Assembly (NCBI RefSeq): GCF_013170705.1 | Contig: NZ_CP033334.1 | Coordinates: 4,937,501 to 5,001,500, forward strand | Length of the DNA: 64,000 bases | Source of the DNA: Mesorhizobium loti | GTDB taxonomy: Bacteria > Pseudomonadota > Alphaproteobacteria > Rhizobiales > Rhizobiaceae | Direction: 5' to 3' | Shown: positions 44,325 through 60,890 of the stretch, piece by piece | Layout: every line of letters begins with the position of its first letter | Numbering within the stretch: the first letter of the stretch is position 1 | The notes under the pieces: generated by a model | Told to the model about the DNA's origin: nothing | Databases searched by the model: none | The model's input: only the letters and a program-made list of their open reading frames with translations | Position numbers and translations under genes: made by a program

Positions 44325-44356
44325 CAAAAAAGCCCGCCGGCCGGAGCCAGCGGGCT
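44325..44356 (-). terminator. Terminator of the RiPP-like peptide gene
   Basis: On the minus strand, AGCCCGC pairs with GCGGGCT with a further CGG/CCG stack in the loop, followed by a run of six T. It lies 20 bases after the stop of the 32-residue peptide. Confidence 0.85.
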
Positions 44357-44376
44357 GACATTGTTTAATGCCGACG

Positions 44377-44475
44377 TCAGTCGATAAGTGGCGGTGGCGG
44401 CGATACGGCCTGCGCCACAACGTTCGACAACTTCTCACGCTTGGTGAGTTCTGGCTTCTGGTAAGCTTTCTTCAT
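44377..44475 (-). CDS. 32-residue peptide resembling a RiPP (lasso-type) precursor
   Basis: The peptide starts MKKAYQKPELTKREKL, a YxKPxLxKRExL pattern like the leader bound by RiPP recognition elements, and ends in a proline-rich segment (AVSPPPPLID). A GGGGGA lies 6-11 bases before the ATG. It has its own -35 box (TTGACA) and a terminator, so it is an independent small gene. No modification enzymes are nearby. If it is a RiPP precursor, the enzymes act in trans; it might instead be an unmodified regulatory peptide. Confidence 0.6.
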   Translation of the reverse strand: MKKAYQKPELTKREKLSNVVAQAVSPPPPLID

Positions 44476-44506
44476 GCGTGTCCCCCGGTTGTCCCTCAAG
44501 CCGGCA

Positions 44507-44535
44507 AAGTGTCTTCCGCAACGAGAATTTGTCAA
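44507..44535 (-). promoter_or_regulatory. Sigma70-like promoter for the RiPP-like peptide
   Basis: A consensus -35 TTGACA (44535-44530) and a weak -10 (GACACT/ACACTT at about 44513-44507) lie upstream of the peptide start at 44475. The -35 overlaps the stop of the preceding 35-residue frame. Confidence 0.5.
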
Positions 44536-45417: not shown

Positions 45418-45819
45418 CTAGCCACCACGCAGCACGCGCCAGATGTCATGCCAATAGGCGGTAACCAGCGACGCCAGTGCCGCCGCTGCCATCCCCGTTA
45501 CACCCAAGGCACCAAGCCCCATAAGCTTCCAGCGCGTCACCTCGGCCGTCACTTCCTTGACGCTGGTCATGTCGGCATTGAGCTTGCTGACCGCGCTTTC
45601 GGTGGCGCTGACGCGCTCCACCAGCTCGTCGGTCTTCTGATACATCTTCGCGCGGCTGGCGGCGGCGCGCTGTTCCGACTGCTCGTAGCTCAGGGCGGCG
45701 CGGGAATCGCTGTCCTTGATGTCGCGACGGATCTCGGTGATGTCGCGTTGCATGTTCTGCGTCGCCTCGAGGAGACCGCCGATCATCATTTCGAGGCTTC
45801 TGTTGGATGGTCCCGGCAT
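45418..45819 (-). CDS. DUF1515 family phage protein
   Basis: A 133-residue protein: a long helical or coiled-coil N-terminus (MMIGGLLEATQNMQRDITEIRRDIKDSD, TDELVERVSATESAVSKLNAD), then a C-terminal membrane helix (LMGLGALGVTGMAAAALASL). DUF1515 proteins lie in rhizobial prophage lysis regions. A holin or holin-partner role is inferred from place and topology only. Last gene of the late operon. Confidence 0.75.
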   Translation of the reverse strand: MPGPSNRSLEMMIGGLLEATQNMQRDITEIRRDIKDSDSRAALSYEQSEQRAAASRAKMYQKTDELVERVSATESAVSKLNADMTSVKEVTAEVTRWKLMGLGALGVTGMAAAALASLVTAYWHDIWRVLRGG

Positions 45820-45837
45820 GTCCCGCCCTTCGCTGCG

Positions 45838-46104
45838 CTATTTCAGTTCGGCCCGGCGCGCGGCGCTGGCCTTGGTATGCAGATCGCATTCAGCCCTGGT
45901 GTAGAGCTTCACGGCACAGCCGGGCGCCACGGTGCGGTCGATCCGGTTCTGATCGGCCACCGTCTTGCCTTGTGCGCCGGGAAGGCTGTTACCGAGGGCC
46001 TGTCGTAGCGGCGCTACACCGCTGACGTCCGAAGTCGTACACGCCGCCAGCGTCAATGCACTCGTCAAGAGACATGCGAGCGTCGATGCCCTTGTGAATC
46101 GCAT
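45838..46104 (-). CDS. Small lipoprotein nested in the preceding gene, o-spanin-like
   Basis: An 88-residue protein with a lipoprotein signal (MRFTRASTLACLLTSALTLAAC, lipobox LAAC). Its first 116 bases overlap, in another frame, the end of the membrane-protein gene 45989-46282. This nested arrangement is typical of phage Rz/Rz1 spanin pairs, suggesting the outer-membrane spanin subunit. The mature part has three cysteines and is not proline-rich, unlike classic Rz1. Confidence 0.65.
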   Translation of the reverse strand: MRFTRASTLACLLTSALTLAACTTSDVSGVAPLRQALGNSLPGAQGKTVADQNRIDRTVAPGCAVKLYTRAECDLHTKASAARRAELK

Positions 46105-46282
46105 CCTGATTTCCCTTCTCGATGTTGGCGCGGACCTCGTCGGCGCCTTTGTGCTTGATGAATTCGTAGACCCCGAGCACAGCGCCCGAGGCGACGAGGG
46201 CGATGGCCGACCAGCCGATGACGCCGCTGACCAGGCGCGAGACGCCAAGCCGGTCGGCAAGGAAGGTGATGAGCAAGCTCAT
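45989..46282 (-). CDS. Single-pass membrane protein of the lysis cassette, i-spanin- or holin-like
   Basis: A 97-residue protein with one strong hydrophobic segment (VSGVIGWSAIALVASGAVLG, about 18-40) and a charged periplasmic part (ADEVRANIEKGNQDAIHKG) ending with two cysteines. It overlaps the endolysin stop by 4 bases and contains the lipoprotein start. It would be the inner-membrane half of a spanin pair; a holin is the alternative. Confidence 0.65.
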   Translation of the reverse strand: MSLLITFLADRLGVSRLVSGVIGWSAIALVASGAVLGVYEFIKHKGADEVRANIEKGNQDAIHKGIDARMSLDECIDAGGVYDFGRQRCSAATTGPR

Positions 46283-47130
46283 GCCGGAGCCGTCCCAAGC
46301 GCCGCGGCAAGCCGCTTGGCCTTTCGGTTGGCATACCAGCGGTAGCCGGCACCGCCGAGCAGCAGCACGGCACTGAGGACGGCCAGGGCCATCACGACCT
46401 TCATGATGAACTCGCTGCCGTATGACATCGGGGAAAGCTGGTTCTGGAGATCCTGCAGCGTGCCGGCGATGCCGCCGCTGCCGATGCCGGCGCCGATCGC
46501 CGCGTCGGCCGGCGCGGTCGAGGGTGGCGCCTCTGCGTCCTCGACGAAAGCCTTCGCCTGGCCGCCGACGTAAAAGCTGGCGGCTTGCGGCACCTGGCCG
46601 GTTGCCCACGCCTGACCGATCGAGCGGACTTCGGCGACACGGGCCGTCCAGCCACGGCCAAAGGTGGCGAAGGTGCCGAGGCGCTTCAGGAAGGCCATGC
46701 GCGCGTTGCAGATGCGATCGATCAGCGCGTCGTTGTTCTTGTCGGCCTTGAGCGCCGCCAGCGTGCCGACGCCCATGACGCCGTCAATACGCCCGGTGTA
46801 GGCAGGCCGTAGTGCCTGCTGAAGCCACATGATCGAGCGGCCAGGGCCGGAGTTCACAGCGCCATCGAACAGAACGTAATCGACGCCGGCCGGCAGCAGA
46901 TCGCCCTTCACGGCATCCCAGTACTGCCTGTCATAGATTTCGTTCAGTTCATCCGTGGTGATGCCCTTGACCGAGCGCACGGCAAGGCCCTTGCCCTTGC
47001 GATAGCCGTCATAGACCCGCTGGGTGACACCCTTCATGGTGGCGCCGCCGGGATCCTTTGGATGGTTGCTGTAGCCGCCCTCATGCGCGAGCACGCGGGC
47101 AAGCGATTCCTTTTCACGGGACGCTGCCAT
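46279..47130 (-). CDS. GH108 endolysin with peptidoglycan-binding domain and C-terminal membrane helix
   Basis: The 283-residue protein starts with a GH108 muramidase domain; E17 in HEGGYSNHPKDPGGATMKG is the catalytic acid. A peptidoglycan-binding_3 domain (about 95-175: YDRQYWDAVKGD, then GRIDGVMGVGTLAAL) follows. A membrane helix near residues 240-262 (IMKVVMALAVLSAVLLLGGA) and a basic tail end the protein. It cuts the host cell wall at lysis. AAGGAAA precedes the ATG. Confidence 0.9.
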   Translation of the reverse strand: MAASREKESLARVLAHEGGYSNHPKDPGGATMKGVTQRVYDGYRKGKGLAVRSVKGITTDELNEIYDRQYWDAVKGDLLPAGVDYVLFDGAVNSGPGRSIMWLQQALRPAYTGRIDGVMGVGTLAALKADKNNDALIDRICNARMAFLKRLGTFATFGRGWTARVAEVRSIGQAWATGQVPQAASFYVGGQAKAFVEDAEAPPSTAPADAAIGAGIGSGGIAGTLQDLQNQLSPMSYGSEFIMKVVMALAVLSAVLLLGGAGYRWYANRKAKRLAAALGTAPA

Positions 47131-47183
47131 GATGTTTCCTTTCGGGTGATGATTTGGCTATGGTCGGCGCCGGGGGCGGGCCG

Positions 47184-47387
47184 ATGAAACGAGACTGGGT
47201 AAAGCTGCCGAAGCCGTGGGCTGAACTGCGCCCCAGCCTACGCGACGAGGTCGCGGCCAAGGCGGGCGACATCCACACCTATGATGGCGGGCACGTCAGC
47301 CTGGTTGATGGCCTATGGCAGGTTGTGTTCAGCGGGGGCGCGAACGACGCCGATCTGGTGCTGAATGCGCTGAGGAAGCCGAACTAG
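47184..47387 (+). CDS. Small plus-strand gene inserted between lysis and tail-fibre genes
   Basis: About 67 residues: KRDWVKLPKPWAELRPSLRD, then VSLVDGLWQVVFSGGANDADLVLNALRKPN. It is the only plus-strand gene in this late region and converges exactly on the next minus gene (stops overlap by a few bases). The ribosome site is unclear. It could be a moron expressed in the lysogen; function unknown. Confidence 0.45.
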   Translation: MKRDWVKLPKPWAELRPSLRDEVAAKAGDIHTYDGGHVSLVDGLWQVVFSGGANDADLVLNALRKPN

Positions 47388-47812
47388 AGCTTTACCGCCG
47401 CCACGAACAAGCCGTCGACCTGCTCATCGGTCAGCCCGACCTCAATGGCGAGCGCCTGCAGGTAGGCATGGCCGCGCGAAATATAGGTTGCCTTGCGCCA
47501 CCAAATTCGGACCGGCTCATAGGGAAAAGCCTCGATCACGGCATTGACGTCGGCAAGCAGACCGCCATTGTCGAAATTGAACAGGGCTATCTCTGCCTGT
47601 GCTGGAGACACCCTGTCGGGCACCCGTACGACTGGCCCCGGCAGGCCGTAGGCCGTAAGCACCTCTGTGAGTTCATCCTCGTTCAGGATGTGCGTGAAGC
47701 CAGCCTCCTCGGGCAGGTCCGCGACATACGCACCGGTCGCGCTTGACCAGAAGCGGTTGTCGTCGCCACCGACCATCCAAAACCAATTCTCGGGCATTTG
47801 AAAATCGGTCAT
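47384..47812 (-). CDS. Hypothetical protein after tail fibre, possible fibre-assembly factor
   Basis: A 142-residue protein with an N-terminal Trp-rich part (MPENWFWMVGGDDNRFWSSATGAYV) and a helical end (RIWWRKATYISRGHAYLQALAIEVGLTDEQVDGLF). It overlaps the fibre gene stop by 4 bases. The position suggests a tail-fibre assembly chaperone, but the sequence alone does not prove it. Confidence 0.55.
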   Translation of the reverse strand: MTDFQMPENWFWMVGGDDNRFWSSATGAYVADLPEEAGFTHILNEDELTEVLTAYGLPGPVVRVPDRVSPAQAEIALFNFDNGGLLADVNAVIEAFPYEPVRIWWRKATYISRGHAYLQALAIEVGLTDEQVDGLFVAAVKL

Positions 47813-49263
47813 CAGCTGTACACTCCAAGGGCATCGGTCGTTCCGGCGATGCTGCCGGGGTAGTAGCTGACACCGCCGCCGTTTGAGAAAATTGTTCCGA
47901 GGGCGCCGACTGCGTAGCGTTTTCCGGTAGCTGAACCGACGAATGTGTTGCTGTAGTATTCGATCAAACCACCGCCACGACCCGATTGAGCAAAACTCGC
48001 TGAAAAAGCGGGCGCCCCGATGAGCGTTACGGTTGTAACAGTGCACCGAATGTAGCCGCCCGCACCAACCGTTGCATGAAATTGACCGCCGCCCGAAATC
48101 GTCATAGTCGGGCCGCTTGAGAGAATGGACGAGCCCCCGCCAGACGCGCTCATCTGGTAGTTGGTGACCTGTCCAAAATCCATGTTGGAGTGAGTAATGA
48201 CCCCGCCTGTTGCGGCGTAAAGCCCCAGACCAATAGGTCCGCTCGCCGTGACCTTGAAGTTTTGAACCGTGATGCGGCCACCGCTCAAACACTGAATGAC
48301 ACCGTTCTGCGAAGTGGTGGTCTGCATGAGCACGTTGGCCGGTGTCGCGGCGTTTCCGTTGATCGTGACAGTTCCGCTGCCGATCCAGGCCCCGTTGACG
48401 ATGACTGTGCCGGTGTAGGTTCCGTCCGCCACCTGAATGGTGACGTTGTAGATGGAAATATCCAGGGCAGCGACGACGTTGATCGCCTTCTGGACAGTCA
48501 GAAAGGCACCGCCCGCACTGTTAACGAGGCCTGTGTTTGCGTCATTTCCGTCTGTCCGGACATAATACGTCCGGTTGGCGGTGAGAACATCGCGGATCAC
48601 GGTGGTCGAAAGCAGCAACGCCTTCAATTGCGCAATGGTCAAATCCTCCGGAGCGCCAGTCCCGGCTGTCGTGCGTCCCTTGATAGTGGCATTTGCCATG
48701 TTGGCCAGTTTCACCACCGGCACGGCTGGATTGATGCTGTCGATGTTGATGCCGGCGCCGGCAACCAGGCTGCTTACCGGGCCGCCAGCCGCCGCATCGG
48801 CGACCGGGAACGGCCCGATCCACGCCAGCGTCGGCCCGTCCCACCGGTAGAAGGCAAACTCAACGCCGAGTTCGGCGCGCAGGAACAGGTAATTGTCGTC
48901 GTCGGCCGTCAGCGTCAGCGCGTTACGCTTTGCCAGCGAGCCGGAATTGTTCGGGTGGATGCCGGCCAGCGACAACGTGACGAGGACGCGCGTCAGCTTG
49001 TCATAGAGGTCGACGACATTCGCGGCGTCGGAATCCTCACGCACGATGGCATAGGAATACGTGCCGCTCGCCCCGGTCCACTTCACCGCTCCGCTCAGGT
49101 GCGTGTTGTCCGTCACCGCAGCAATCGGCATCGGGTTGCCAGGCGCCTCGATGTTGAGCGTGCCGCCCGTGACCAGGGAGACAGCCCAACCCGTGCCGGT
49201 GCCGACAACCGCGGCACTGCCGTTCGTCACCGTGACGGTGCCGGTGTTGTATATCGATGTCAT
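47812..49263 (-). CDS. Tail fibre/tailspike-like protein with beta-helix features
   Basis: A 483-residue protein. The N-terminus (MTSIYNTGTVTVTNGSAAVV) resembles phage fibre attachment domains. The centre has a pectate-lyase-like start (YYVRTDGNDANTGLVNSAGGAFLTVQKAI) and then repeated short beta strands (TVTINGNAATP, ITVQNFKVTAS, GGVITHSNMDFG), typical of right-handed beta-helices. It probably contacts the host surface; an enzymatic role is unproven. Confidence 0.75.
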   Translation of the reverse strand: MTSIYNTGTVTVTNGSAAVVGTGTGWAVSLVTGGTLNIEAPGNPMPIAAVTDNTHLSGAVKWTGASGTYSYAIVREDSDAANVVDLYDKLTRVLVTLSLAGIHPNNSGSLAKRNALTLTADDDNYLFLRAELGVEFAFYRWDGPTLAWIGPFPVADAAAGGPVSSLVAGAGINIDSINPAVPVVKLANMANATIKGRTTAGTGAPEDLTIAQLKALLLSTTVIRDVLTANRTYYVRTDGNDANTGLVNSAGGAFLTVQKAINVVAALDISIYNVTIQVADGTYTGTVIVNGAWIGSGTVTINGNAATPANVLMQTTTSQNGVIQCLSGGRITVQNFKVTASGPIGLGLYAATGGVITHSNMDFGQVTNYQMSASGGGSSILSSGPTMTISGGGQFHATVGAGGYIRCTVTTVTLIGAPAFSASFAQSGRGGGLIEYYSNTFVGSATGKRYAVGALGTIFSNGGGVSYYPGSIAGTTDALGVYS

Positions 49264-49272
49264 GATTGATCC

Positions 49273-50883
49273 CTAGAGGCTCTGGGGGATGCCGAAGATG
49301 TAATAACGGAGGCCCTTCAACTGGCTGTTGAAGAAATTGGCGCTCGGCTGGATGTTGTCCGGGTTATTGTTCGAACCGAATATATCGACACTGGTTGATG
49401 AGAGCACGTTTGCCCATGTAGACCATCCCGTGCTCTGCCCCTGCCACGTGGCATTGTTGACAAACACGCCATGCTCACCCCAAACAGCAGACGGCTCCCC
49501 ACTACCTGAAGGGATCGGGTTGGCGTTGTAAACCGCACCAACCTTGGGGAAGAGAAACAGCCCATTCGGATTCGGGATCGTCAAATTCGCCTTGCGCACG
49601 CCCTTAAAACGATCGCTGCCAGACAGGACGGCCGGGAAGTCGCTCGACCAATTGAGGAACCCCTCCGCCAAAATCGGCAGATAGGTGAGGCGCGTGTCAA
49701 GCATGATGTCGTTGAGATTTGGGCCCAGGTCGGAAGAGCCGGGCCTCTTTATCTGCACGAAATCACCTATGCCGTCATTTCCTTTCAGAAATATTTTCTT
49801 GCCGCCACTTGTCGGTGCTTCCCCTGAATCCGCATAAACTACATATGTGATATCGATGGGAAAGCCGCAGGTACTCGTGATCGAGAGTGTAGTGCCAGAC
49901 ATCGTGTAGATGAAGCTGTTGGCATTCGAAGTGAAGCTATTGATGTATGGCGGATGCCAGTACGTCGTTTCACTGGTCTTCTTGCACATGTAATCCATGT
50001 ACGTCAGTTCGGTCATCGGCAGGCGCGTGTTGATATTGACTGTCGCGCCTGCCGCAACTGTCACCTGCCCAGAAGCCATCACCTTGGCCGGTATCCTGTC
50101 TTCATGCAGGATGTAATGCGCGGAATCGGTATCGGTAACGGTACGGCCAGCCAACGCAACGCGCGCAATTCCGGGTGATGTCTTGTCGAACCTGACGACC
50201 TCCTGCCCCGACGACGACATGGTTGAATTATCCGGTATGCCCTCGTCGTGCATTGGCAGGTCGAATACGGCAACAAGGCACCTCTTGGTTGGAGGCGTTG
50301 CCGTATTGTTATCTGTAAGACCGCTGTTTTCGTTCGGAACAATAATTGCGGCTCTATTTCTACCGGGAGGGCCGCCTGAGCCGCTATCTGGGATCAGTCT
50401 TGTTCTGGACGAACAGCTTGTGTACGAAAATATTGTTCCATTGCTTGTGCCGCCTCCGGATATGTCGATGTAAGGGCCACGGAACTTGTTGACCGTGAAA
50501 TCCAGGCATGGGCGAACTTCAATTAGCGGATAGAAGCTATACCCATATTGTGCAGCAAAGTATTCCTTATAGAAGAACCACTGTTGAAAATTTCGGCCGC
50601 CAGCCTGCCAGCAACCGACGTATATTTGACAGGTGTTCTTGTTCGAGCCGGCAGGAATATAATACTGCCGTGGAGAAAATACGGTGCCGCCACTCGCCGG
50701 GAATGTCACGAAGTCAGCATCGACGGCAAAAATATCCTTGATATAGCCCACCTTCTGGAATTCAGAGTTGAAATAGAACTTCCCCGTATCCGTGTTCGGC
50801 GTCGTCAGCGGATCATCGCTGTTGTCTTTCATGATCTTGGCGAAAGGAACGCTGCCCCGCCTGCCCGTCACAAGGTTTGGCAT
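49273..50883 (-). CDS. Putative tail tip/receptor-binding protein of unknown family
   Basis: A 536-residue protein starting MPNLVTGRRGSVPFAKIMKD, overlapping the host-specificity gene by ATGA. Gly/Ser/Thr/Asn-rich and beta-strand-like throughout; several Cys (KNTCQIYVGCW). GC is visibly lower than in the neighbours, as expected of exchangeable receptor-binding genes. I recognise no domain. Confidence 0.6.
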   Translation of the reverse strand: MPNLVTGRRGSVPFAKIMKDNSDDPLTTPNTDTGKFYFNSEFQKVGYIKDIFAVDADFVTFPASGGTVFSPRQYYIPAGSNKNTCQIYVGCWQAGGRNFQQWFFYKEYFAAQYGYSFYPLIEVRPCLDFTVNKFRGPYIDISGGGTSNGTIFSYTSCSSRTRLIPDSGSGGPPGRNRAAIIVPNENSGLTDNNTATPPTKRCLVAVFDLPMHDEGIPDNSTMSSSGQEVVRFDKTSPGIARVALAGRTVTDTDSAHYILHEDRIPAKVMASGQVTVAAGATVNINTRLPMTELTYMDYMCKKTSETTYWHPPYINSFTSNANSFIYTMSGTTLSITSTCGFPIDITYVVYADSGEAPTSGGKKIFLKGNDGIGDFVQIKRPGSSDLGPNLNDIMLDTRLTYLPILAEGFLNWSSDFPAVLSGSDRFKGVRKANLTIPNPNGLFLFPKVGAVYNANPIPSGSGEPSAVWGEHGVFVNNATWQGQSTGWSTWANVLSSTSVDIFGSNNNPDNIQPSANFFNSQLKGLRYYIFGIPQSL

Positions 50884-53597
50884 CACGGCACCGAGATCGA
50901 GAAGAAGCCGTTGTTCAGGTCGAGCTTGACCGAACCATCGGCGCTTTGGAGCAGGCCGGCTGTCACCGTGCCAAGGTTCGCGATGAGGGATTTCAGCACA
51001 CCTCCCTCGAAAGTCAGCGGCGTGCCTGTGCTCGTGCCGTCCGTGACGACGAACTGGCTGGCCTTGATGACAAAGCGCGAGAATGGCGCCATGGGGTCGC
51101 CCCCGGTGAAGCCGGCCTCCATGACGTAGCCGGCATCGACCCACGCATCCCCAGTCGTCGCCCTCACCTGGGCCACCAGCCGTGACGTGACATCGCCACT
51201 GCCAGCCGTCGCCACGAGCTGGAACAAACCGCTTGCCGAGACCAGGCCGACAGAAGCTTGCACGCCGAGGATGGCCGCCGCCTGCGCCGAGAGCACGCCA
51301 TCGATTTCGTCAATGTTGGCGTCCAGTTCCAGGAAGGCCGCCGCGCTCGCATCGCGGAATCGCCGGGCGACGGCATTGTCCTGGACTTGCCGGCCGGCGG
51401 CATCGCTCGCCGATGCGGCCAGTTGAGCCAGCTTGCCGCGCGCGTCCTGTAGCCCGGCCGAAAGGCTGGTCAGGAACGCAATCATGTCGGCCTGCTGCTG
51501 CGCCAGCCCCACCGAAACGTCGATCACCTCGCCGGGCGTCGAGACCTGCCCCCACGCCGTGAAGAAAGTGGTGCGCGGCGGATCGGTGATGATGCGGTGC
51601 CGATACTCATAGGTCTTGTTGGGCAACACGCCTTCCGAGACGGTCAGTACCTGCACAGGCATCTCCGCGCGCTTGACGATGCTGGCGACATAGCCGCTGA
51701 GGATGCCGGATTGCGCGCCCGTTGTGACGATCGCCGCGCCGCCAGGTGTCAGCGATGCCGTGAATGTGCCTGGCGTCAGCACCGTCTTGACGTAGAGCGG
51801 GCTGTCGGGCGTCAGGCCTGTCGGCAGCGCGCCTGTCGTCGCGAGGTAGAACAGGTCGTTGGCCGCCAGATTGTGGTTCGGCCAGGTGATGACGGCGGGA
51901 TTGGCGATCGTGACCGTGACGCCGACCGCTTCAGGCCGGTATTCCACATCGATGGCCGAAACGGTGTTGTCGTCGAACGCATCCCATTGGAAGCGGATGC
52001 CGGTCTTGCGCTCATCCGAACCTTGCACCTGTATCTGGATGCCGTTGGCGACGAAGCCGCTCGCCTGCGTGGCATAGTCCGGATCGCCGGGCGCCACCGG
52101 GATAACGGGCACGGTGACATAGGCGGTCGGGTCGAAGATGCTGTCGTCGACCTGCTGAAGCGTCAGATAGATGTTGCGCGCCGCCTTGTCGCCGAGCGGC
52201 CCGAGCCGCTTCTCCAGGATCTGGAATTTGAACGTGCCGTATTCGGCGGAAGTCCATTGCACCCAGCGCCCGACCTTGGCATCGGCGAGGAATTTCGGAT
52301 GGATGCAGATTTCGGCATTGCCCTGGAAGCGGCTGGCCTTGAAGGCGATGTCGGCTAGCCGGTCGGCAACATCGGACCGATTGACCGCGCCATAGGGCAC
52401 CGACACGGCCAGGCGCTCGCCATCCTCGGCCAGTGCGGAGGCATTGATGCGCACCGCGAACGGCGTCTGCTCATAGAAATTGTCCGGCTCCAGATAGGTA
52501 CCGGCCAGCGTGTTGATCAGTTCCGACTTGGTGCGCTTGGTCGAAAAACGGAGGGTTTCGTCGACCATGATGTCGTCATCGCTGAAGGTCATGACGATCG
52601 ACTGCGCGGCGCCTGCGATCGGGTATTCGCCCGAAGCGTCCTCGACCCACGTCGAAGCTGACGCCTCAAGCAGAGGCTGCAGGTTCTGGTCATGCGTGAC
52701 ACCGGAACCGGCCGCCGCGATCAGGCCGGCCGTGTAACGCTTTCCAGCGCCGACAGTCTCGTCGCTGACGTTTGCGGCCAGCGTCCACATGTCGAGCGGC
52801 AGGCGCGACGCCGGCACGCCCTTGCCAACCATCATTTCCGTGCCGTTGAAGATGCCGCGCTCAAGCGCATAGGCCATCAGGACCGGGTTTTCGGTGAATT
52901 CCCATGTCGTCTGGTCATTCCACCGGTGCGACCCCGAACCGCCGACGGTGGTATCCTTGCGCCAGTCGTAGAGCGGCGCGCCCTGTACCTCGAAGAACGC
53001 GTCCCACGGCTGCTGCAGATGCTCGCGATCAAGGATGCTGGTGACGACGGCATAGGCGATGCCGGCGCCGCGATGGTTCGTCGTCCAACGGCCGACAGGA
53101 TTGGAGCGCGAAATCAGGCCGGCGTCCGCCGTCTGTGTCATCGTGCCCTTGTAGAGCTTGACCCAGACCTCGCCGTCGATGCCCTGGACGCGGAAACCCT
53201 TCATCGCATCCTCTGGGCCGCCGAGCGTTGCCCACGCCCCTTTGTAGCGAACGCGCGTGATGCCGGTGATCAGGAAGTTGGACAGGATCCGGACATCCTG
53301 GACGCGCCGGTTCCCCGAACCGTAGGCATTGCGATAGACAAGCTGGCCAGCGGTGCCGTAGCGGCCCAGGCCGACCGAGCGCGCCAGATCCTCGCCATAG
53401 GTCGTGTCGAGCTGCGAGGCCTGCGCCTGCGCCTTCTGGCCCCCGCCAAACAGAGAGCCGAGCGCGTACTTGGCCGCCAGCCCAAGGCCGAAGCGTGCCA
53501 GCCCGGCAAGGATGGTCGAGCCGCCCAGCCAGGAGGCGACACCACCAAGACCGACCGCGCTGAAGACGGTGGTGAAAAGCGGGACAAGAAAACCCAC
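50883..53597 (-). CDS. Tail tip/host-specificity protein (J-like)
   Basis: A 904-residue protein at the place of the tip attachment protein. N-terminal hydrophobic segments are followed by LARSVGLGRYGTAGQLVYRNAYGSGNRRVQDVRILSNF, typical of GpJ-like hub proteins. A fibronectin-like middle and a C-terminal part (LVAQVRATTGDAWVDAGYVMEAG) like DUF1983 of lambda J complete it. It determines adsorption and links tail tip to fibres. Confidence 0.8.
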   Translation of the reverse strand: MGFLVPLFTTVFSAVGLGGVASWLGGSTILAGLARFGLGLAAKYALGSLFGGGQKAQAQASQLDTTYGEDLARSVGLGRYGTAGQLVYRNAYGSGNRRVQDVRILSNFLITGITRVRYKGAWATLGGPEDAMKGFRVQGIDGEVWVKLYKGTMTQTADAGLISRSNPVGRWTTNHRGAGIAYAVVTSILDREHLQQPWDAFFEVQGAPLYDWRKDTTVGGSGSHRWNDQTTWEFTENPVLMAYALERGIFNGTEMMVGKGVPASRLPLDMWTLAANVSDETVGAGKRYTAGLIAAAGSGVTHDQNLQPLLEASASTWVEDASGEYPIAGAAQSIVMTFSDDDIMVDETLRFSTKRTKSELINTLAGTYLEPDNFYEQTPFAVRINASALAEDGERLAVSVPYGAVNRSDVADRLADIAFKASRFQGNAEICIHPKFLADAKVGRWVQWTSAEYGTFKFQILEKRLGPLGDKAARNIYLTLQQVDDSIFDPTAYVTVPVIPVAPGDPDYATQASGFVANGIQIQVQGSDERKTGIRFQWDAFDDNTVSAIDVEYRPEAVGVTVTIANPAVITWPNHNLAANDLFYLATTGALPTGLTPDSPLYVKTVLTPGTFTASLTPGGAAIVTTGAQSGILSGYVASIVKRAEMPVQVLTVSEGVLPNKTYEYRHRIITDPPRTTFFTAWGQVSTPGEVIDVSVGLAQQQADMIAFLTSLSAGLQDARGKLAQLAASASDAAGRQVQDNAVARRFRDASAAAFLELDANIDEIDGVLSAQAAAILGVQASVGLVSASGLFQLVATAGSGDVTSRLVAQVRATTGDAWVDAGYVMEAGFTGGDPMAPFSRFVIKASQFVVTDGTSTGTPLTFEGGVLKSLIANLGTVTAGLLQSADGSVKLDLNNGFFSISVP

Positions 53598-53600
53598 GGT

Positions 53601-54017
53601 CTAGCCGACCTTGAAGGCGGTCTTGATGGCCGATTGGGGCAGGATGAACACGCCGGTCTCCGTCCGTGCCATGAAGCCCCGATCGCACATGAAGCCGGCG
53701 CAGAGCTGGCCGTCCTGGTCGACCACGCCGACATCGCCTCGTTGCGCCATGAGGCGGCCGACAGGCGCAAACAGGCTGGCGAGCGCCATCTCGACATCAT
53801 CGAAGCCGCGCTTGCGCAGGATCCTGGCCGCGCCGGCTTCGGTCTTGTACTTGCCCCGTATGTCGGCGGCCGGATCGAAGCCGGTGATCTCGGCAACGAC
53901 GTCCATGACGGTGAGAAGGCAATCGGATTGCCCCCATACGCCAGGCGTGGCGGCGATCGCCGGGACCAGGCGCGCAAGGCGGCGGTCCCAGTCAGGCAAC
54001 CGGGTGAGTTGGAGCAT
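53601..54017 (-). CDS. DUF6950/NlpC-P60-like tail protein
   Basis: A 138-residue protein with WGQSDCLLTVMDV (candidate nucleophile C33), an N-terminal LTRLPDWDRRLARLV and a late CDRGFMARTETGVFILPQSA. This fits DUF6950, a small NlpC/P60-like family in tail operons, matching the gp14 position of gene transfer agents. Likely a tail-tip peptidase or plug. Confidence 0.78.
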   Translation of the reverse strand: MLQLTRLPDWDRRLARLVPAIAATPGVWGQSDCLLTVMDVVAEITGFDPAADIRGKYKTEAGAARILRKRGFDDVEMALASLFAPVGRLMAQRGDVGVVDQDGQLCAGFMCDRGFMARTETGVFILPQSAIKTAFKVG

Positions 54018-54023
54018 GATGCC

Positions 54024-54590
54024 TCAGTCGAACTTGATGTCGAAGGTTTCGTGTTTCACCTTCGAGGCGTACTGGAAGAACTGGTCGCCGGGCGAAACGA
54101 GCTGCTGGTCTTCGTGGCTGGCCGTGCGGTAGCCGTCGCGATGGTTGGCGATGGCCCCGGAGCGGACATTGGCGATCAGCTTCTTTTCGCCATTGTCACG
54201 GGAATGGTCGATCGTGTCGATGAAGCCGTAGGCGCCAGGCTCGGCATGCAGGAAGGACCGGTCATCGGGATCGATATAGAAGTCGAAGACCGTGACCGGC
54301 GCATCCTTGTAGCCTTCGCTCTCAATCAGGGCGAGCTTGTCAGGCGTCAGGCCGGAATCGCGCTTGGCAATCAATTCCACCGTGAAGGTCGATGCGGCGG
54401 TGCCAAGGCCATAGACGGGCTCGGACACGGTGATCAGCGAGTTCGGCCAGTAGAGTTGGCCAGCGACGGTGATATCGCCCTTGCCATTCCAGAAGCCGTA
54501 TGTGCCGGTCGTGCACACGATCTTGATGCCGGAGCGAATGACCGCCCTACCCTCGGATAGCACCGTCTGCAGGCGGGTCGGAAAGCTCAT
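54024..54590 (-). CDS. Tail protein, DUF2163/BR0599-like
   Basis: A 188-residue beta-rich protein. RSGIKIVCTTGTYGFWNGKGDITV and SVYGLGTAASTFTVEL-like strands are followed by YRTASHEDQQLVSPGDQFFQYAS near the end, as seen in this tail-tip family. It overlaps the next upstream gene by 4 bases. Corresponds in order to gp13 of gene transfer agents. Confidence 0.68.
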   Translation of the reverse strand: MSFPTRLQTVLSEGRAVIRSGIKIVCTTGTYGFWNGKGDITVAGQLYWPNSLITVSEPVYGLGTAASTFTVELIAKRDSGLTPDKLALIESEGYKDAPVTVFDFYIDPDDRSFLHAEPGAYGFIDTIDHSRDNGEKKLIANVRSGAIANHRDGYRTASHEDQQLVSPGDQFFQYASKVKHETFDIKFD

Positions 54591-55198
54591 TTCGGAATCT
54601 CGACAAGCGTGAAGGTCGCGACCGGTTTTGGCTCGTCGGGAATCGAGAACGAGCCGGGGTAGAGCCGCATGTTGGCGACAGGGTTCTTGAACGTGATGAC
54701 AGCGCCGGCGGTGAGATAGGAGGGCACGGTCGGCTCGACCGTCACGGTGATCTGGTTGCTCGACGCCACGCCGCCGGTCTGGACGCGGAACAAGGAATTG
54801 TAGTCATCGTTCGTCGCGGAGATCAGATCGCCCGGGCCAAGCGTCAGGCCATTGTCGACGCTGTTGATGACCAGCGAATTGCCCGTGATGGAAACCAGGT
54901 TGCCGGCATTGGCCAACGCCGCCGCGCCTGGGTTGCCCCAATAGGCGCGCGGAAGGCACATGTGCTTGGGCGTATAAAGCACCGTCTGCAAGCCACCGCG
55001 GCAGGCGTCCTTGAAGGCTTCGACGAGCAGCCGTTGCGACGCCTTCAGCGGCTTCGTACGCATCTGGATGGTCCAGTAACTGTCGGCATACTCGACGAAG
55101 GCCATGGCGCGCGTGCCGGAGCGCGAGACCGAGACGGATTCGGTCAGTTGCGGATACGCGACTTGAAAGCCGACGGCCGGCAACGCGATCGCTGTCAT
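54587..55198 (-). CDS. Tail tip component
   Basis: A 203-residue protein (YADSYWTIQMRTKPLKASQRLLVEAFKD, LGPGDLISATNDDYNSLFRV) lying directly after the tape measure gene with a 4-base overlap. Position matches distal tail proteins (gp12 in gene transfer agents), but I cannot assign DUF2460 from the sequence. Confidence 0.65.
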   Translation of the reverse strand: MTAIALPAVGFQVAYPQLTESVSVSRSGTRAMAFVEYADSYWTIQMRTKPLKASQRLLVEAFKDACRGGLQTVLYTPKHMCLPRAYWGNPGAAALANAGNLVSITGNSLVINSVDNGLTLGPGDLISATNDDYNSLFRVQTGGVASSNQITVTVEPTVPSYLTAGAVITFKNPVANMRLYPGSFSIPDEPKPVATFTLVEIPK

Positions 55199-57207
55199 GA
55201 CATCAGTCCCGTCGTCTTGGCTTCACGAATGGCCTTCACCACGCGGCCGGTGAATTCCTTCTCGAACTTCTTCAAGGCGGCGGTGACCTGTTCGCCGGAA
55301 TCGCCCTGGCCGCCATCCATGTTGATCGTCGGCGCGAAAACCGGGCTGATGACGGAGGATTGCGAAGATCCGGCCGCCACGCGCTCGCTTACGTCGTGCG
55401 GCAATACCTGGCTGCCTCTGGGCAGGTTGATGAGTTCGCGGCCCTTCTCGCCGACCCACGCCAGACCACCCGGATGATTACTGGTGCCGCTGGCATAGCC
55501 AGGAAGGCCAAGCATCTCGGCGAAACCGCCCGGCGTGCCAAATGACGACGCGCCGCTACCACCCAGCCCAATGGCGCCCAGCAAACCGCCGAGAAGGCCG
55601 CCGCTCCCGCCGCCGGCGTTGTTCGCTTGCAGGATGGCGTCGACCAGGTCGTTTTCGATCTTGTCGATGATCTTGTCGAGCGCGTTGATGGCTATATCGC
55701 CGAGGTCTTTCCAGTCCAGCTTGCCATCGTCGAGCGCGGAACGCAGATCGCAGAAAGCGCCTTGCAGGACGTCGCGCTGCAGGGCCTGCGCCTCGCGGGC
55801 ATCCTTGAGTTGCTGCGCCTGTCTGGCATAGGCCTCGGCAACCGCGTTGATCGAAGCGACCTGCTGCGGCGAAAGCTGGATCGACGAAACGTCGGTCTGC
55901 CCCTTCTTGAGCGCTTCCTCGCGGAGCTGCTTGAGTGCGGTCTGCTCGAGGTCGAGCGCGACCCTGCGCTTCTGCTGTTCCTCGAAGGACAGGCCGATCA
56001 TCGACGCTTCCTGCTCGAGCGCGGCGGTGCGATCGCGGATCGCCTGGATATCCTCGCCGATCTTGTCGTCGGCGGTCAGGCGCTGGCCACGCGATGCGCG
56101 GCGTGCAGCCGCAGAGGCAGCTTTTTCTTGAGCGGCGAGTACATCTTCGCGGTTCGGGGCGTTGTCCGGCGTCGGTGCGTTGTCGGGCAAATTGAAACGC
56201 GGATCAAACCCGAGCGTTTTACCTGTCGGAGATCTGCCGTTCGGCGACCCTCCGCCCCCGAACACCTTGTCCACTTCGCCTGCCAGCGAAGCCATGGTCG
56301 GAATCAGCGACGACGCTTGGCCGGCGAGGTTCGTCAACATAGTGATGAAGCTGTCGCCATTGACCTTAGCGGCTGCAAACGTCGCTTTGGCGCTATCTAC
56401 GACATCATTGAAGTCCTGTTGCGTAACAGTGCCGCCCGCCACCTCCGTCTTGAGTTCCTCGAATTTGTCACGGAGCTCTTGCGCAGCGGTGTTCTTGCCT
56501 AAGGTGTCCAACTGATACTGGAGGTCCGCAAGTACACTGGTAGCCTCGACGAAGCCCTCAGTGAGAGGGGCTCCAGAGTTCTCGCGAGCAGCCAGAAGAG
56601 CATTGAGCTTGCTCTGCTGGTCGGCAAGCGCAGCCTGCTCATCTGCGTACGCTTTGAGCGCGGGCAGGGCCACGCCCCACTGCGCCGCAACCTTTTGGAT
56701 GAGGTCGGCTTCCTGCTTCAGCGTTTCGGCCGATTTCTCTCCATTAGAGAGCAGACCGGTGAAGTACTGAACAGCAACGCCACCCAAGGTGATGATGGCG
56801 ATCGTTGCGAGACCGACCGGATTGACCAGAGAGGCAAAGGCACCTCCTAGCGCCGTTATGGCACCTCTTGCGCCGGCTGAGCCAAGCGCCTGGTTGATTT
56901 GCGTGCCCTGCTGGAGAGCGATCAGAAATGGCGACTGCCCTCCGGCGAGCTGAACACCGATATCGTTCAACTGGGCCGCAAGATTTCCGGTCTGAATCTT
57001 TGCTCCCTGTATGGATTTCGCCATCTTGTCAATGCCGGGTGTGCCCCGCGCACCGATCTTAGAAAGGGCATTCTCGACACGAGTGCCATCAGCCTCAATG
57101 CCGGCGAACGATGCTCCGGCATTCGCGCGCGACTTGGCCAAGGCCTTGTCAAGCGCATCGAACTTCGCTTCAAAGATCGCGAGCAACCGCTCGGCTTCGA
57201 TGGCCAT
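55195..57207 (-). CDS. Tail length tape measure protein
   Basis: A 670-residue, mostly helical protein. GNLAAQLNDIGVQLAGGQSPFLIALQQGTQINQAL is the lambda-type tape-measure N-terminal signature; hydrophobic helices follow near residues 135-175. A coiled coil (EEQQKRRVALDLEQTALKQLREEALKKG) and a Gly-rich C-terminal segment complete it. Its length sets the tail length. No strong ribosome site precedes it. Confidence 0.9.
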   Translation of the reverse strand: MAIEAERLLAIFEAKFDALDKALAKSRANAGASFAGIEADGTRVENALSKIGARGTPGIDKMAKSIQGAKIQTGNLAAQLNDIGVQLAGGQSPFLIALQQGTQINQALGSAGARGAITALGGAFASLVNPVGLATIAIITLGGVAVQYFTGLLSNGEKSAETLKQEADLIQKVAAQWGVALPALKAYADEQAALADQQSKLNALLAARENSGAPLTEGFVEATSVLADLQYQLDTLGKNTAAQELRDKFEELKTEVAGGTVTQQDFNDVVDSAKATFAAAKVNGDSFITMLTNLAGQASSLIPTMASLAGEVDKVFGGGGSPNGRSPTGKTLGFDPRFNLPDNAPTPDNAPNREDVLAAQEKAASAAARRASRGQRLTADDKIGEDIQAIRDRTAALEQEASMIGLSFEEQQKRRVALDLEQTALKQLREEALKKGQTDVSSIQLSPQQVASINAVAEAYARQAQQLKDAREAQALQRDVLQGAFCDLRSALDDGKLDWKDLGDIAINALDKIIDKIENDLVDAILQANNAGGGSGGLLGGLLGAIGLGGSGASSFGTPGGFAEMLGLPGYASGTSNHPGGLAWVGEKGRELINLPRGSQVLPHDVSERVAAGSSQSSVISPVFAPTINMDGGQGDSGEQVTAALKKFEKEFTGRVVKAIREAKTTGLMS

Positions 57208-57219
57208 GAGGAGGAAACC

Positions 57220-57504
57220 TTGGATAGTTGGTTGAAAGGGCTGGTCACAGTTACCTGTCTGGCGGTGCTCGCAGCAGCAGGATTTTACATCACGGCAGAG
57301 ATCAGCAAGAAGAAGATGGACGATCCCGGCGGCACGTCAAATCTCGTTCGATCTGAACTATTCTATCTTGCGGGCGCCAAGGCTGATGATGTGTCGGGTG
57401 TAAGGGGATACTGTCAATTGCTTCAGACACGGCAGCAGGGCGGACAAAGCGATGATAAGACAACACGCCTCCTTAGAAATTGCCGTGCGCTCGGTTTTCT
57501 TTAG
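57220..57504 (+). CDS. Moron-like membrane or exported protein, TTG start
   Basis: Ninety-four residues from a TTG at 57220, with AGGAGG ending 6 bases before it. One N-terminal hydrophobic segment (LVTVTCLAVLAAAGFYI) and a soluble remainder with two Cys. It is antisense to the structural operon, fits exactly between the tape measure start and the chaperone stop, and has lower GC: the pattern of a moron expressed from the prophage. Function unknown. Confidence 0.6.
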   Translation: MDSWLKGLVTVTCLAVLAAAGFYITAEISKKKMDDPGGTSNLVRSELFYLAGAKADDVSGVRGYCQLLQTRQQGGQSDDKTTRLLRNCRALGFL

Positions 57505-57657
57505 CTAATGCAGTCCCCTCGCCCTCGCGATCGCGGCCTCAAACTCATCACGTGATGGCGGAGCAATCGCATCGGCCGGCGCGTGCGCCTGGTTCCACAT
57601 CCTGACGACAGCAACCCACTGGCCGATCGACAGATCACCGACATTGCCGACGCCCAT
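57505..57657 (-). CDS. Tail assembly chaperone, second part (possible -1 frameshift product)
   Basis: The frame encodes MGVGNVGDLSIGQWVAVVRM and on to FEAAIARARGLH. Its ATG overlaps the stop of the preceding chaperone (TGATG). However, residues just upstream in the same frame (RLDFGAIRGNAVL) also look conserved, suggesting that the product is made as a -1 frameshift extension of the first chaperone, as in lambda G/GT. It corresponds to gp10.1 of gene transfer agents. Confidence 0.6.
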   Translation of the reverse strand: MGVGNVGDLSIGQWVAVVRMWNQAHAPADAIAPPSRDEFEAAIARARGLH

Positions 57658-58064
57658 CAGGACGGCATTGCCACGGATGGCGCCGAAGTCGAGGCGTTTG
57701 ACTTCGGCGCCTGCTGTTCCCCCGGCTCGTCTTCCTCCAGCGCCGCCGAGTGCACCCGCTCCATCGCCGCGCGCAGGATGACCTGGCCAAGCGCGATGCT
57801 TTCCATCAGCGGTCGTTCGTCGACATAGCGCTTGACCAGCATGCGCGCCTCGATCGGCTTCATGCCGCCGCCGATCAGGCCAATCCGGATCGTCTCGGAA
57901 TAATGTTTGATCCGCGCGAAAGGCAACTCCGCGCTCATCGCCGCATGCAACAGAAAAACCGACATGTCGACGGCTGACTCCAGTTCCTCGATCTGATCGA
58001 GGCCAAGCCGGAAGGTGTGCGACCCTCCGGCCCAATCGATGTCGATCGCACCGTGGCGGTTCAT
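57657..58064 (-). CDS. Tail assembly chaperone, GTA gp10-like (Phage_TAC_11)
   Basis: A 135-residue protein: MNRHGAIDIDWAGGSHTFRL, LDQIEELESAVDMSVF, GLIGGGMKPIEARMLVKRYVDERPL. This is the gene-transfer-agent gp10 type of tail chaperone, which coats the tape measure protein. Overlaps the tail tube gene by ATGA. Confidence 0.82.
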   Translation of the reverse strand: MNRHGAIDIDWAGGSHTFRLGLDQIEELESAVDMSVFLLHAAMSAELPFARIKHYSETIRIGLIGGGMKPIEARMLVKRYVDERPLMESIALGQVILRAAMERVHSAALEEDEPGEQQAPKSNASTSAPSVAMPS

Positions 58065-58498
58065 CAAACCGCCGTCCAGGTTACAGCGCCGTCGGAAACC
58101 AGCGTGACGGTGGAGGTCGCGGTGTCCTTGTTGCCGTCCGACGTCACCTCGAACTGGGTGAGCTTGAAAGCGCCCTGCCAATAGCCGGCCGGCGTGACGT
58201 TGAAGCGGACGTTCTTGGCGTCGTCGCCATTGTACCAGTCCCACCATTCGCCGAGTGACGCGGCATAGAGCATGCCGGCGCCCGAAATCGTGGCCTGCAA
58301 GCCATCCTTGGTGACGGATTTCCAGGCAGGATCCTCCGGATTGTCGCAATCCGGCATGATCGACTCGTTGGTTTCCGACGTGAACTGCACGCCACGCTTG
58401 GTGTTGATGAGGCAATCGTGGTCGAAGGTTTCGGGATCCGCGCCGTTGCCGATCTGGACGAGCAGCTTCGACCCGGTGACGCGAGGTACAGCGGTCAT
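58064..58498 (-). CDS. Major tail tube protein
   Basis: A 144-residue beta-rich protein of the TP901-1/GTA gp9 tube type: GSKLLVQIGNGADPETFDHDCLINTKRGVQFTSETNE, then WDWYNGDDAKNVRFNVTPAGYWQGAFKLTQFEV. It polymerises into the non-contractile tail tube. GGAG lies 9-12 bases upstream of the ATG. Confidence 0.85.
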   Translation of the reverse strand: MTAVPRVTGSKLLVQIGNGADPETFDHDCLINTKRGVQFTSETNESIMPDCDNPEDPAWKSVTKDGLQATISGAGMLYAASLGEWWDWYNGDDAKNVRFNVTPAGYWQGAFKLTQFEVTSDGNKDTATSTVTLVSDGAVTWTAV

Positions 58499-58534
58499 GA
58501 TAGTTCTCCATGGTTGAGTGCCCGTCCGGGCCGG

Positions 58535-58924
58535 TTAGGCCGGGTCGATCAAGGCCCGGAAGGAAACGACGGCATGTTCGGTCAAGCCGTCGGGATCGCG
58601 GAAAACGCGTGTCGTCTGATGCTCGATGGAAACCAGCGAGAAGCCGGAGATCGTCGTGATCGCGCGCACGGCGTCGACCACCTGACCGGCCAGCGTCTTG
58701 ACTTCGACCTTCGAGCCATTGTCCGGGCGCGACCAGCAATGGACATCGGAGAACACCTCCCAGCCATCCTGGCAGGTGTTGCCGTCGTCAAGTAGCTGCT
58801 CGTCGCCGATGGTGATGCGCGGGAATGGGTTGCTCGGCGGCACCTGGTCGAAAACGTTGGCGCCGGCATCCGTCGCGCCATCAAGAGCGGCGAAAAACGC
58901 CCTCTGGACTTCCGCGCCGATCAT
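58535..58924 (-). CDS. DUF3168 tail completion protein
   Basis: A 129-residue protein with the DUF3168 pattern: VFDQVPPSNPFPRITIGDEQLLDDGNTCQDGWEVFSDVHCWSR and a late TTRVFRDPDGLTEHAVVSFRALID. It caps the tail at the head junction (gp8 of gene transfer agents). Confidence 0.88.
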   Translation of the reverse strand: MIGAEVQRAFFAALDGATDAGANVFDQVPPSNPFPRITIGDEQLLDDGNTCQDGWEVFSDVHCWSRPDNGSKVEVKTLAGQVVDAVRAITTISGFSLVSIEHQTTRVFRDPDGLTEHAVVSFRALIDPA

Positions 58925-59346
58925 TTGCCGAAAGCCTTCTTGGCGCCATTGCGGATCGCGCGCCCGAGCCGGGCCTTTGCCCGTTTCTTGCCGAAGCGAA
59001 AGCCCGGATAGAAGAACGGGTTTGCCGACATGTCGACGGTGCCGAATTCCTGAAAGCGGGCGTAGAAGGCTTCCCCACCCCCGGCATACATGGTGACGGA
59101 CAGCCCGGTTTCGCCCTTGGCCGCTCTGGCGTTCGCCGCGGTAGAGAGCGAGGCACCCTTCGGCGCTTCGCCAAAGCCGTATCCGATGCTGGCCGCGAGC
59201 CGACCCGTCTTCTTTGGCGCAAACCTTTTCATCAGGTCCGTCGTTTCTTCCGCCGAGACAGTCAATGACTTGGTGACCTCGTCGCGCATGGCCTGTGGCA
59301 GCGCGGCGATCTGCGCCAAGAACTTATCCTTGCCCTTGATCTGCAT
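58921..59346 (-). CDS. HK97 gp10-like head-tail protein
   Basis: A 141-residue basic protein: MQIKGKDKFLAQIAALPQAM, APKKTGRLAASIGYGFG, FYARFQEFGTVDMSANPFFYPGFR. This is the HK97 gp10 pattern (KTGxLxxSI, then EFGT). Overlaps both neighbours by ATGA. It helps join head and tail. Confidence 0.88.
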   Translation of the reverse strand: MQIKGKDKFLAQIAALPQAMRDEVTKSLTVSAEETTDLMKRFAPKKTGRLAASIGYGFGEAPKGASLSTAANARAAKGETGLSVTMYAGGGEAFYARFQEFGTVDMSANPFFYPGFRFGKKRAKARLGRAIRNGAKKAFGK

Positions 59347-59690
59347 CAGGCCGCCACACCCTTCTGGCACAGGAAATCGATGAATTGCCGGTCGAGGCCG
59401 GGCGTGATGTCGCGGATATTGAAGACGTCGCCACTTCGCACGTCCCGTATCCGCCAGTCCGTCGTCACGTTCCGCGTGAGCGATGACGAGCGCACGCGGA
59501 TAATCTGCGGATGCTGGCCCTGCAGCCGCGCCGCCTGGACGCTCTCGCCGCCGCGCAGATGGACGAAACCAGCGCGGCACTGGAACTGCTCGCTGAAGGC
59601 TGTCGTCGTCCCGCCTGCGCCGTCCGACGCCATGCCCTTGACGTCGAAAGCGACGCGATAGACCAGGTCACCGGCTGTCGGCTTCGGCAT
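59346..59690 (-). CDS. Head-tail adaptor (SPP1 gp16/phage head-tail joining family)
   Basis: A 114-residue protein: GDLVYRVAFDVKGMASDGAGGTTTAFSEQFQCRAGFVHLRGGE and WRIRDVRSGDVFNIRDITPGLDRQFIDFLCQKG, the typical adaptor layout. Seals the connector; gp7-like in gene transfer agents. Confidence 0.85.
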   Translation of the reverse strand: MPKPTAGDLVYRVAFDVKGMASDGAGGTTTAFSEQFQCRAGFVHLRGGESVQAARLQGQHPQIIRVRSSSLTRNVTTDWRIRDVRSGDVFNIRDITPGLDRQFIDFLCQKGVAA

Positions 59691-59877: not shown

Positions 59878-59879
59878 GG

Positions 59880-60290: not shown

Positions 60291-60316
60291 GGGAGGTCTC
60301 CGGTTGAAGGGAACGA

Positions 60317-60886: not shown

Positions 60887-60890
60887 GGAA

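Follow-up and report, generated by a model that had tools for sequence, protein, structure and literature searches.

Introduction

The account of linear polyphosphorylated peptides (LPPs) in Bacillota (PMC13381572, 2026) describes pathways with an SpI-like peptidase, a recognition element (RRE) for ribosomally synthesized and post-translationally modified peptides (RiPPs), an HprK-like kinase, a nucleoside triphosphate (NTP) transferase, and a transporter. As reported there, Ser3 of the LPP core carries phosphates, LPP and lasso peptide clusters often co-localize, and the two pathways coexist and discriminate between leaders (PMC13381572). Pseudomycoidin, a phosphorylated lasso peptide, is reported to be phosphorylated by PsmK and to receive a hexose from PsmN (PMC9266682). 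A single promiscuous enzyme that serves many precursors is described for the prochlorosins and the SyncM lanthipeptides, with up to 79 SyncA substrates (PMC10783134, PMC9872173). Here we analyzed a gene for a 32-residue peptide in a 64,000-nucleotide stretch of the Mesorhizobium loti genome (contig NZ_CP033334.1, positions 4,937,501 to 5,001,500; hereafter the window), which a preliminary description had read as an orphan RiPP precursor with a lasso-like leader and its own promoter and terminator. Judged from its sequence, the gene encodes a RiPP precursor, stands alone on a prophage, and belongs to a hypervariable, multicopy family. This scattered family probably partners a single remote cluster that encodes an RRE, a B2 peptidase, a kinase, and a nucleotidyltransferase. 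The evidence consists of a shared leader and promoter element, constrained Ser/Thr residues in the core, co-occurrence and co-loss of peptides and cluster, precursor genes adjacent to the cluster in relatives, and the absence of a cyclase from the cluster. We read the system as a likely B2-processed alphaproteobacterial counterpart of the Bacillota LPPs whose precursors are dispersed and phage-borne. Searching the open-access literature by title or abstract start, we found no paper on the Mesorhizobium system. Such repertoires are missed because RiPP mining looks beside enzymes, and most family members lie far from them or on phages.

Results and Discussion

A multicopy peptide family with a nearly fixed leader and hypervariable cores

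The peptide is not an orphan. In its own 6.87-Mb genome, tblastn returned 13 matches at E<=10 and a family profile returned 14 at E<=1e-3. These copies are single genes or close pairs amid unrelated neighbors, each at least 1.3 Mb from the enzyme cluster described below. A protein search found 476 relatives; among the matches listed, the named ones were nearly all from Mesorhizobium, two were marked plasmid-borne, and the labels included "putative RiPP precursor" and "lasso RiPP family leader peptide-containing protein". Family members already carry labels at NCBI, with PF19397, NF033521, and NF033528 as the related profiles; no enzyme partner came with a label in anything seen here. NF033528 matched 20/31 and NF033521 9/31 family members at E<=1. 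Single-sequence family scans of the window peptide gave only lasso-type profiles below their curated cut-offs, and PF19397 found nothing above its cut-off over the genome.

A profile search for the leader, as the preliminary description had suggested, gave between 4 and 14 copies in each of 45 of the 61 genus genomes and also matched 18 genomes of nine other genera. In an alignment of 120 sequences (the best 119 of the 476 matches plus P0001, and so the most canonical ones), the shared leader reads MKKxYEKPxLxKRExLSxV(T/V)A and is followed by a hypervariable core. Its Tyr, Pro, Leu, Leu, and last Ala are invariant, with Ala at the final leader position in 120/120. Core and flank statistics (82-86 genes) were restricted to strict-motif copies with at least 100 nt of flank, and the core was taken from residue 22. 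Cores are 5 to 18 residues long, with 73/82 falling between 7 and 12. Ser occurs at core position 4 or 5 in 59/85 unique cores (permutation mean, 24.9; largest value in 2000, 41), and Ser or Thr occurs within positions 2-6 in all 85 (permutation mean, 65.2; largest, 77). From this pattern, the Ser/Thr at core 2-6 is likely the target of a kinase. Asp or Glu at core 7-9 was found in 15/82 unique cores and was absent from the other 67; the window core, with Pro7, Pro8, and Leu9, is among those that lack it.

Two enzyme clusters, one of them without a cyclase

The genome contains two Transglut_core3 genes, one in each of two clusters. The compact cluster (C1:238-241 kb), remote from the window at 4.94-5.00 Mb, has genes in the order PqqD/RRE, lasso-type B2, and HprK-like kinase, with a convergent gene for a PF14907 nucleotidyltransferase. 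Its PqqD is a discrete RRE (PF05402, E 4.8e-12), and the nucleotidyltransferase matches PF14907 at E 6.6e-28. The kinase is a distant relative of HprK (TIGR04352, 29.8 bits against a cut-off of 200) whose catalytic-type residues are invariant in 23/23. No cyclase, transporter, or precursor was found within the block. The second cluster (L053:6961-12868; C1:269-275 kb), about 30 kb away, is an ordinary lasso cluster with its own precursor, PqqD, B2, cyclase (NF033535, 776.7 bits against a cut-off of 525), HprK-like kinase, and PF14907 protein, and, from reading of the sequences, apparently an ABC transporter. Its precursor would be cut between MEQNVEKHEYETPSLTVHGSIETITQ and GGGG to give the predicted core GGGGSTATDASFPAHTPIGDLTFS. 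A view of this cluster as precursor-less was discarded; a motif search whose start was defined too narrowly and a scan for short open reading frames (ORFs) had missed the precursor, which is visible in the DNA. The two enzyme sets are distant paralogues with 25-31% identity over the aligned parts. Of the RRE, protease, and cyclase genes that the preliminary description proposed to look for, the first two are present in the compact cluster, and the cyclase lies in the separate lasso cluster.

Peptides and the compact cluster occur and disappear together

The compact-cluster B2 gene is present in 45/61 genus genomes, including the M. loti genome studied here. At E<=1e-3, the family profile matched peptides in 45/45 B2+ genomes (375 copies in total) compared to 0/16 B2- genomes, where the best match at a looser limit was E 0.07. 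Stray matches in a first single-sequence search (one in G042 at E 0.34 and one in each of four genomes of other families at E 0.23-0.48) were treated as noise. Family-wide, the compact-cluster B2 was found in 24/394 genomes, 18 of them in nine other genera, and peptides were found in all 18 of these (best E 3e-14 to 8e-4). By contrast, 0/18 B2- genomes of other genera, a non-random sample comprising the first listed of the B2- set, had a peptide at E<=1e-3; three gave weak matches (E 0.004-0.011). Fisher tests (5e-15 for the genus; 2e-10 for the other genera) ignore phylogeny and serve for scale only. On a tree of the rpoB region, the trait needs 5 changes, compared to a shuffled mean of 13.4 and minimum of 8. 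In independent pairs on this tree, peptides and compact B2 change together in 5/5, whereas the lasso B2 follows in 1/5. These tests covered 58 of the 61 genomes (15 B2-); G007 was set aside, and G013 and G043 gave no match to PF00562 at the limit used. In the pair test, G020, whose lasso B2 shows 33% identity, was scored as lacking it. The exact co-occurrence, with a cluster at least 1.3 Mb from every copy, and the precursors beside that cluster in relatives support the earlier suggestions that the peptide is a RiPP precursor and that its enzymes are encoded elsewhere.

The leader itself invites a different interpretation, in which the ordinary lasso cluster matures the scattered peptides in trans into lasso peptides. 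The leader of the lasso precursor, YETPSLTVHGSIETITQ, aligns gap-free with that of the window peptide, and the lasso B2 occurs in 44/45 peptide genomes, so that raw overlap alone is misleading. Yet three genomes (G035, G046, and G060) have the lasso B2 without peptides and one (G040, a draft assembly in 190 contigs) carries peptides but no lasso B2, the lasso B2 tracks the peptides in a single pair of five, Asp/Glu at core 7-9 is found in just the 15 cores noted above, and peptide genes adjoin the cyclase-free cluster, with none seen beside a cyclase. We therefore rejected maturation by the lasso cluster, which we rate as very improbable, on the cyclase-free cluster, the discordant genomes, and the pair test. 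The product is probably not a lasso peptide, because the linked cluster lacks a cyclase and 67/82 cores lack Asp/Glu at 7-9. The lasso-like character that had been claimed for the leader is supported by the genetics.

Precursor genes adjoin the compact cluster in relatives

PqqD, B2, HprK, and nucleotidyltransferase genes stand together in 41/41 fetched clusters (the M. loti cluster and 40 relatives; the clusters of L014, G007, G040, and G043, on short contigs, are outside this set). An acs-like gene lies nearby in 41/41 and a dhaK-like gene in 40, both named by reading of the sequences and not by family search. A macrolactam cyclase was found at 0/41 of these loci, 0/74 loci of named genomes, and 0/18 loci of other genera; the 41-locus and 74-locus sets overlap in genomes, and their counts are not additive. 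At 14/41 and 33/74 loci, a precursor of the family is no more than about 6.5 kb away from the cluster. Among named genomes, M. ciceri WSM1271 also has the cluster (L174). In 8 of the 14 clusters a precursor gene is 465-532 nt before B2, and in 8 of the 14 one or two precursors of a second form lie just beyond the nucleotidyltransferase gene. This form, MTKKxYxAPVLRKAGKLSxV, keeps the Gly of lasso-type leaders (L081, L083, L086, L087, L095, L098, L100, and L102) and is possibly closer to the ancestral precursor. In B2- genomes G016, G017, and G020, the two flanking genes are present with no cluster between them, and the one weak B2 match in the G016 stretch (E 0.002) is inside another gene; for G005, G006, G013, and G035, the fetched stretch yielded no dhaK. 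In other genera, multi-precursor arrays adjoin the enzymes in addition to scattered precursors, and the 18 loci contain PqqD in 16, HprK in 17, and nucleotidyltransferase in 16. A search with the lasso ABC transporter matched 1/41 genus loci (L075, over 56 aa at an edge) and 4/18 loci of other genera (L237, L241, L245, and L246; 26-40% identity, 4-6 kb off).

Several observations weigh against a partnership of this family with the compact cluster. Two copies in the M. loti genome appear decayed, one with an in-frame stop (1581342) and one without a start at the usual place (2226173). The residue at -2, next to the predicted cut, varies (T in 34, V in 29, A in 16, and another residue in 3 of 82 unique cores). 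The weakest true peptide matches (E 8e-4) are near the best matches in B2- genomes (E 4e-3), and five pairs fall short of significance (sign test p 0.0625) because independent pairs are so few. Given the heavy overlap of the lasso B2 with the peptides, the case against it rests on the four discordant genomes and the tree. Cluster parts were not found at L244 (PqqD, HprK, and nucleotidyltransferase), L247 (PqqD), and L235 (nucleotidyltransferase), and the compact cluster contains no exporter. Among predicted structures, the nucleotidyltransferase model gave weak fold matches (best E 0.028), and the 50 fold matches listed for the kinase model included PEPCK and no HprK entry.

A proposed pathway and its relation to described systems

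If the compact cluster is the partner, the RRE would grip YxKPxL of the leader, the HprK-like kinase would phosphorylate the Ser/Thr of the core, and B2, by the precedent of lasso B2 peptidases, would cut after (T/V)-A. The phosphate may be further decorated by the nucleotidyltransferase, much like the hexose addition by PsmN on pseudomycoidin. The product would be a short, linear, phosphorylated peptide, mostly of 7-12 residues, and QAVSPPPPLID for the window gene. By analogy, we judge a phosphate on the core Ser/Thr to be slightly favored over other outcomes. The cluster might instead cut or modify the peptides by another chemistry; for example, it might just remove the leader, or it might nucleotidylate the peptide, and the kinase would then act at a different step. 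The remoteness of the kinase from HprK, the annotation of PF14907 as a nucleotidyltransferase, and the lack of a visible effect of LppN in the LPP study as reported (PMC13381572) are consistent with this idea. However, Ser/Thr is constrained in every core, the catalytic-type residues of the kinase are invariant, and LPP and lasso kinases are reported to phosphorylate core Ser residues (PMC13381572, PMC9266682), and we consider another chemistry unlikely.

As set out in PMC13381572, LPPs resemble the Mesorhizobium system in a discrete RRE, an HprK-like kinase, an NTP transferase, and a core gene set without a cyclase, and also in a YxxP leader, variable C-termini, a Ser near the core start, and, often, a lasso cluster in the same genome. 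By contrast, the Mesorhizobium peptidase is a lasso-type B2 and not SpI-like (SipW-type; the loci were not searched with a profile specific to SpI), the block has no MsbA-like transporter, and the leader lacks VLxHQxIxFETxxS, so that only YxxP of YxxPxVLxHQxIxFETxxS is shared. Because the system departs from LPPs in these three features, namely peptidase, transporter, and leader consensus, we do not file it as a member of the LPPs. The two also differ in host, since the paper calls LPPs restricted to Bacillota and the present system is alphaproteobacterial, and in layout, with 4-14 mostly scattered precursors per genome plus phage-borne copies here compared to one to three per LPP cluster (PMC13381572). 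The terms Mesorhizobium, Pseudomonadota, Proteobacteria, and Rhizobi- do not occur in the main text of that paper.

With paeninodin and pseudomycoidin, as described in PMC9266682, the system shares an RRE/B1, a B2, a kinase with the His-Lys-Asp-Asp motif, and a nucleotidyltransferase homologue, but it lacks a macrolactam cyclase, most cores lack a ring acceptor, and Ser is at core 4-5 and not C-terminal. Of the traits of lasso leaders, YxxPxL is present, and Thr at -2 is found in 34/82 cores, with V in the window copy. The prochlorosin and SyncM systems, as reported (PMC10783134, PMC9872173), likewise combine one promiscuous enzyme with many precursors; however, lanthionine chemistry operates there, compared to RRE, B2, and kinase here, where precursors are also on phages and plasmids.

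If peptides and cluster are indeed linked, the Rhizobiaceae possess a maturation cassette and, for it, hundreds of naturally occurring cores, a counterpart of the Bacillota LPPs that is cut by B2, and phage-borne precursors that depend entirely on the host for their maturation. We further propose a distributed RiPP system, in which one chromosomal enzyme set matures a hypervariable repertoire of single-gene peptide units, many with a promoter element of their own, on the chromosome, plasmids, and temperate phages, and a lysogenizing phage adds a phosphorylated peptide by trans-complementation; we regard this extension as evenly balanced between true and false. If true, it would define a RiPP class set apart both by chemistry (linear phosphopeptides, B2-cut) and by genetic layout, and phages and plasmids may add peptides to the chemical repertoire of the host. 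The role of the products could be in signaling or conflict between strains or phages, a guess based on the variable cores and on the copies that ride on mobile DNA. Two questions become testable: the function of linear phosphorylated RiPPs, and the means by which a single genome separates two YxxP-guided pathways (lasso and linear).

Expression elements of the window gene and its family

The claimed 32-residue ORF with a TTGACA, a strong ribosome site, and a tight terminator was confirmed at 44377-44475 (-), and translation from 44475 down to 44377 gives MKKAYQKPELTKREKLSNVVAQAVSPPPPLID followed by a stop (Table 1). The arrangement of TTGACA, spacer, and ATGAARAAR occurs once in the window compared to 0.01 expected from shuffles. 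Across the family, TTGAC lies 52-68 nt 5' of the start in 52/86 genes with enough flank compared to 1.1 expected from shuffles, followed 18 nt later by a weaker CATYYT-like block. This recurrence argues for the proposed stand-alone promoter, but it reflects conservation and not independent recurrence, because the upstream regions are partly related by descent. The element was present in 51/67 genes of loci below L230 (Mesorhizobium relatives and viral contigs almost throughout) compared to 1/19 in other genera and is therefore a Mesorhizobium feature. A strict sigma-70 scan found no promoter at the window peptide gene, because its -10-like block, CACTTT, is far from TATAAT. A Shine-Dalgarno-like motif precedes 77/83 family genes. 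A terminator follows 15/83 genes compared to 9/249 shuffled downstream stretches; we therefore rejected the terminator as a family feature and consider that of the window gene local.

Being short and conserved, along with its promoter element, the family unit could also be an RNA or a promoter-linked repeat whose ORFs are untranslated. This possibility is negligible in our estimation, since conservation tracks codons and residues across diverged genera, the start codon and ribosome site are kept (77/83), and presence tracks that of peptide enzymes.

Table 1. Coordinates of the peptide gene, its local elements, the adjoining prophage region, and the compact-cluster peptidase
Feature	Position	Strand	Basis
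Precursor peptide gene, 32 aa + stop	44377..44475	-	ORF from ATG; family profile E 1.8e-15
Predicted leader MKKAYQKPELTKREKLSNVVA	44413..44475	-	Conserved block of the family; predicted cut after VA
Predicted core QAVSPPPPLID	44380..44412	-	Hypervariable part; Ser4 is the putative kinase target
TTGACA, -35-like element common to the family	44530..44535	-	60 nt 5' of ATG
CACTTT, -10-like block (family CATYYT-like)	44506..44511	-	18 nt after TTGACA; positional alignment, putative function
GGGGGA ribosome site	44481..44486	-	Precedes ATG
Intrinsic terminator, 11-pair G+C-rich stem, then T-run	44331..44356	-	Strong hairpin
Prophage late genes adjoining the peptide gene; carrier, not enzymes	45418..62922	-	PHROGs; homologous phage contig L151
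Endolysin (prophage late region)	46279-47130	-	PHROGs
Tape measure (prophage late region)	55195-57207	-	PHROGs
Major head protein (prophage late region)	61612-62922	-	PHROGs
Compact-cluster B2 peptidase	C1:240107-240538		PF13471 44.8 bits; NF033537 66.9 bits, cut-off 33

Prophage setting, mobile copies, and neighboring small genes

The late region beside the peptide gene (46-63 kb) also encodes a tail fiber and a tail tube (PHROGs). Matches of tblastn to 4 Mesorhizobium plasmids were weak (E 0.04-3), and tblastn of annotated phage records gave none, whereas a pattern scan of IMG/VR matched 13 contigs, 8 of which carry genuine family members; the other five (L143, L144, L146, L147, and L149) were rejected because their sequences are other peptides. 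L151, an independent contig, is closely related to the window prophage; the two share 98% DNA identity over 3.4 kb and encode an identical peptide. Two further contigs, L148 and L152, encode different family members together with an endolysin that falls in the PHROG family of the window prophage endolysin. In L150 the peptide gene is downstream of genes, one with a weak tail match; in L145, L152, and L155 the available stretch ends close to the peptide gene, and both phage and host origins are possible.

Mobile copies could act as decoys, i.e. leader mimics of phages and plasmids that tie up the RRE of the host and so prevent its own peptides from being matured. Phage contigs do carry identical leaders with short cores, and one phage copy (L153) is in antisense orientation, with a phrog_3742 gene on one side and the gene for the major head protein on the other. 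On the other hand, the phage-borne cores keep the Ser/Thr pattern (8 sequences), six viral contigs (L145, L148, L152, L153, L154, and L155) carry the family promoter element, and most copies are chromosomal, which makes decoys improbable.

Other small genes and elements were observed nearby. The minus strand of the window has three strong terminators within about 620 bp (44356-44331, 44723-44688, and 44951-44928), which suggests further short transcripts, and an ORF within 44532-44834 (-) would encode the small membrane peptide MRLIVFAIVIGLFMASGFWLAAELVLVGQATELPG. Similar small proteins with CxxC pairs (zinc-ribbon-like) are encoded near the peptide gene in the window (43773-44087, +) and in L154 (5176-5466, -). 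Repeated small proteins starting MSTRG(A/I)NFL are encoded in the window at 40176-40397 (-) and 43016-43114 (-) and in L154 at 8655-9038 (+). Finally, viral contigs L144 (at 298), L147 (at 268), and L149 (at 5284) encode a different YEKP-type peptide with a C-terminal C-x-QCS-x-CHGCR, which looks like the precursor of another, cysteine-rich RiPP.
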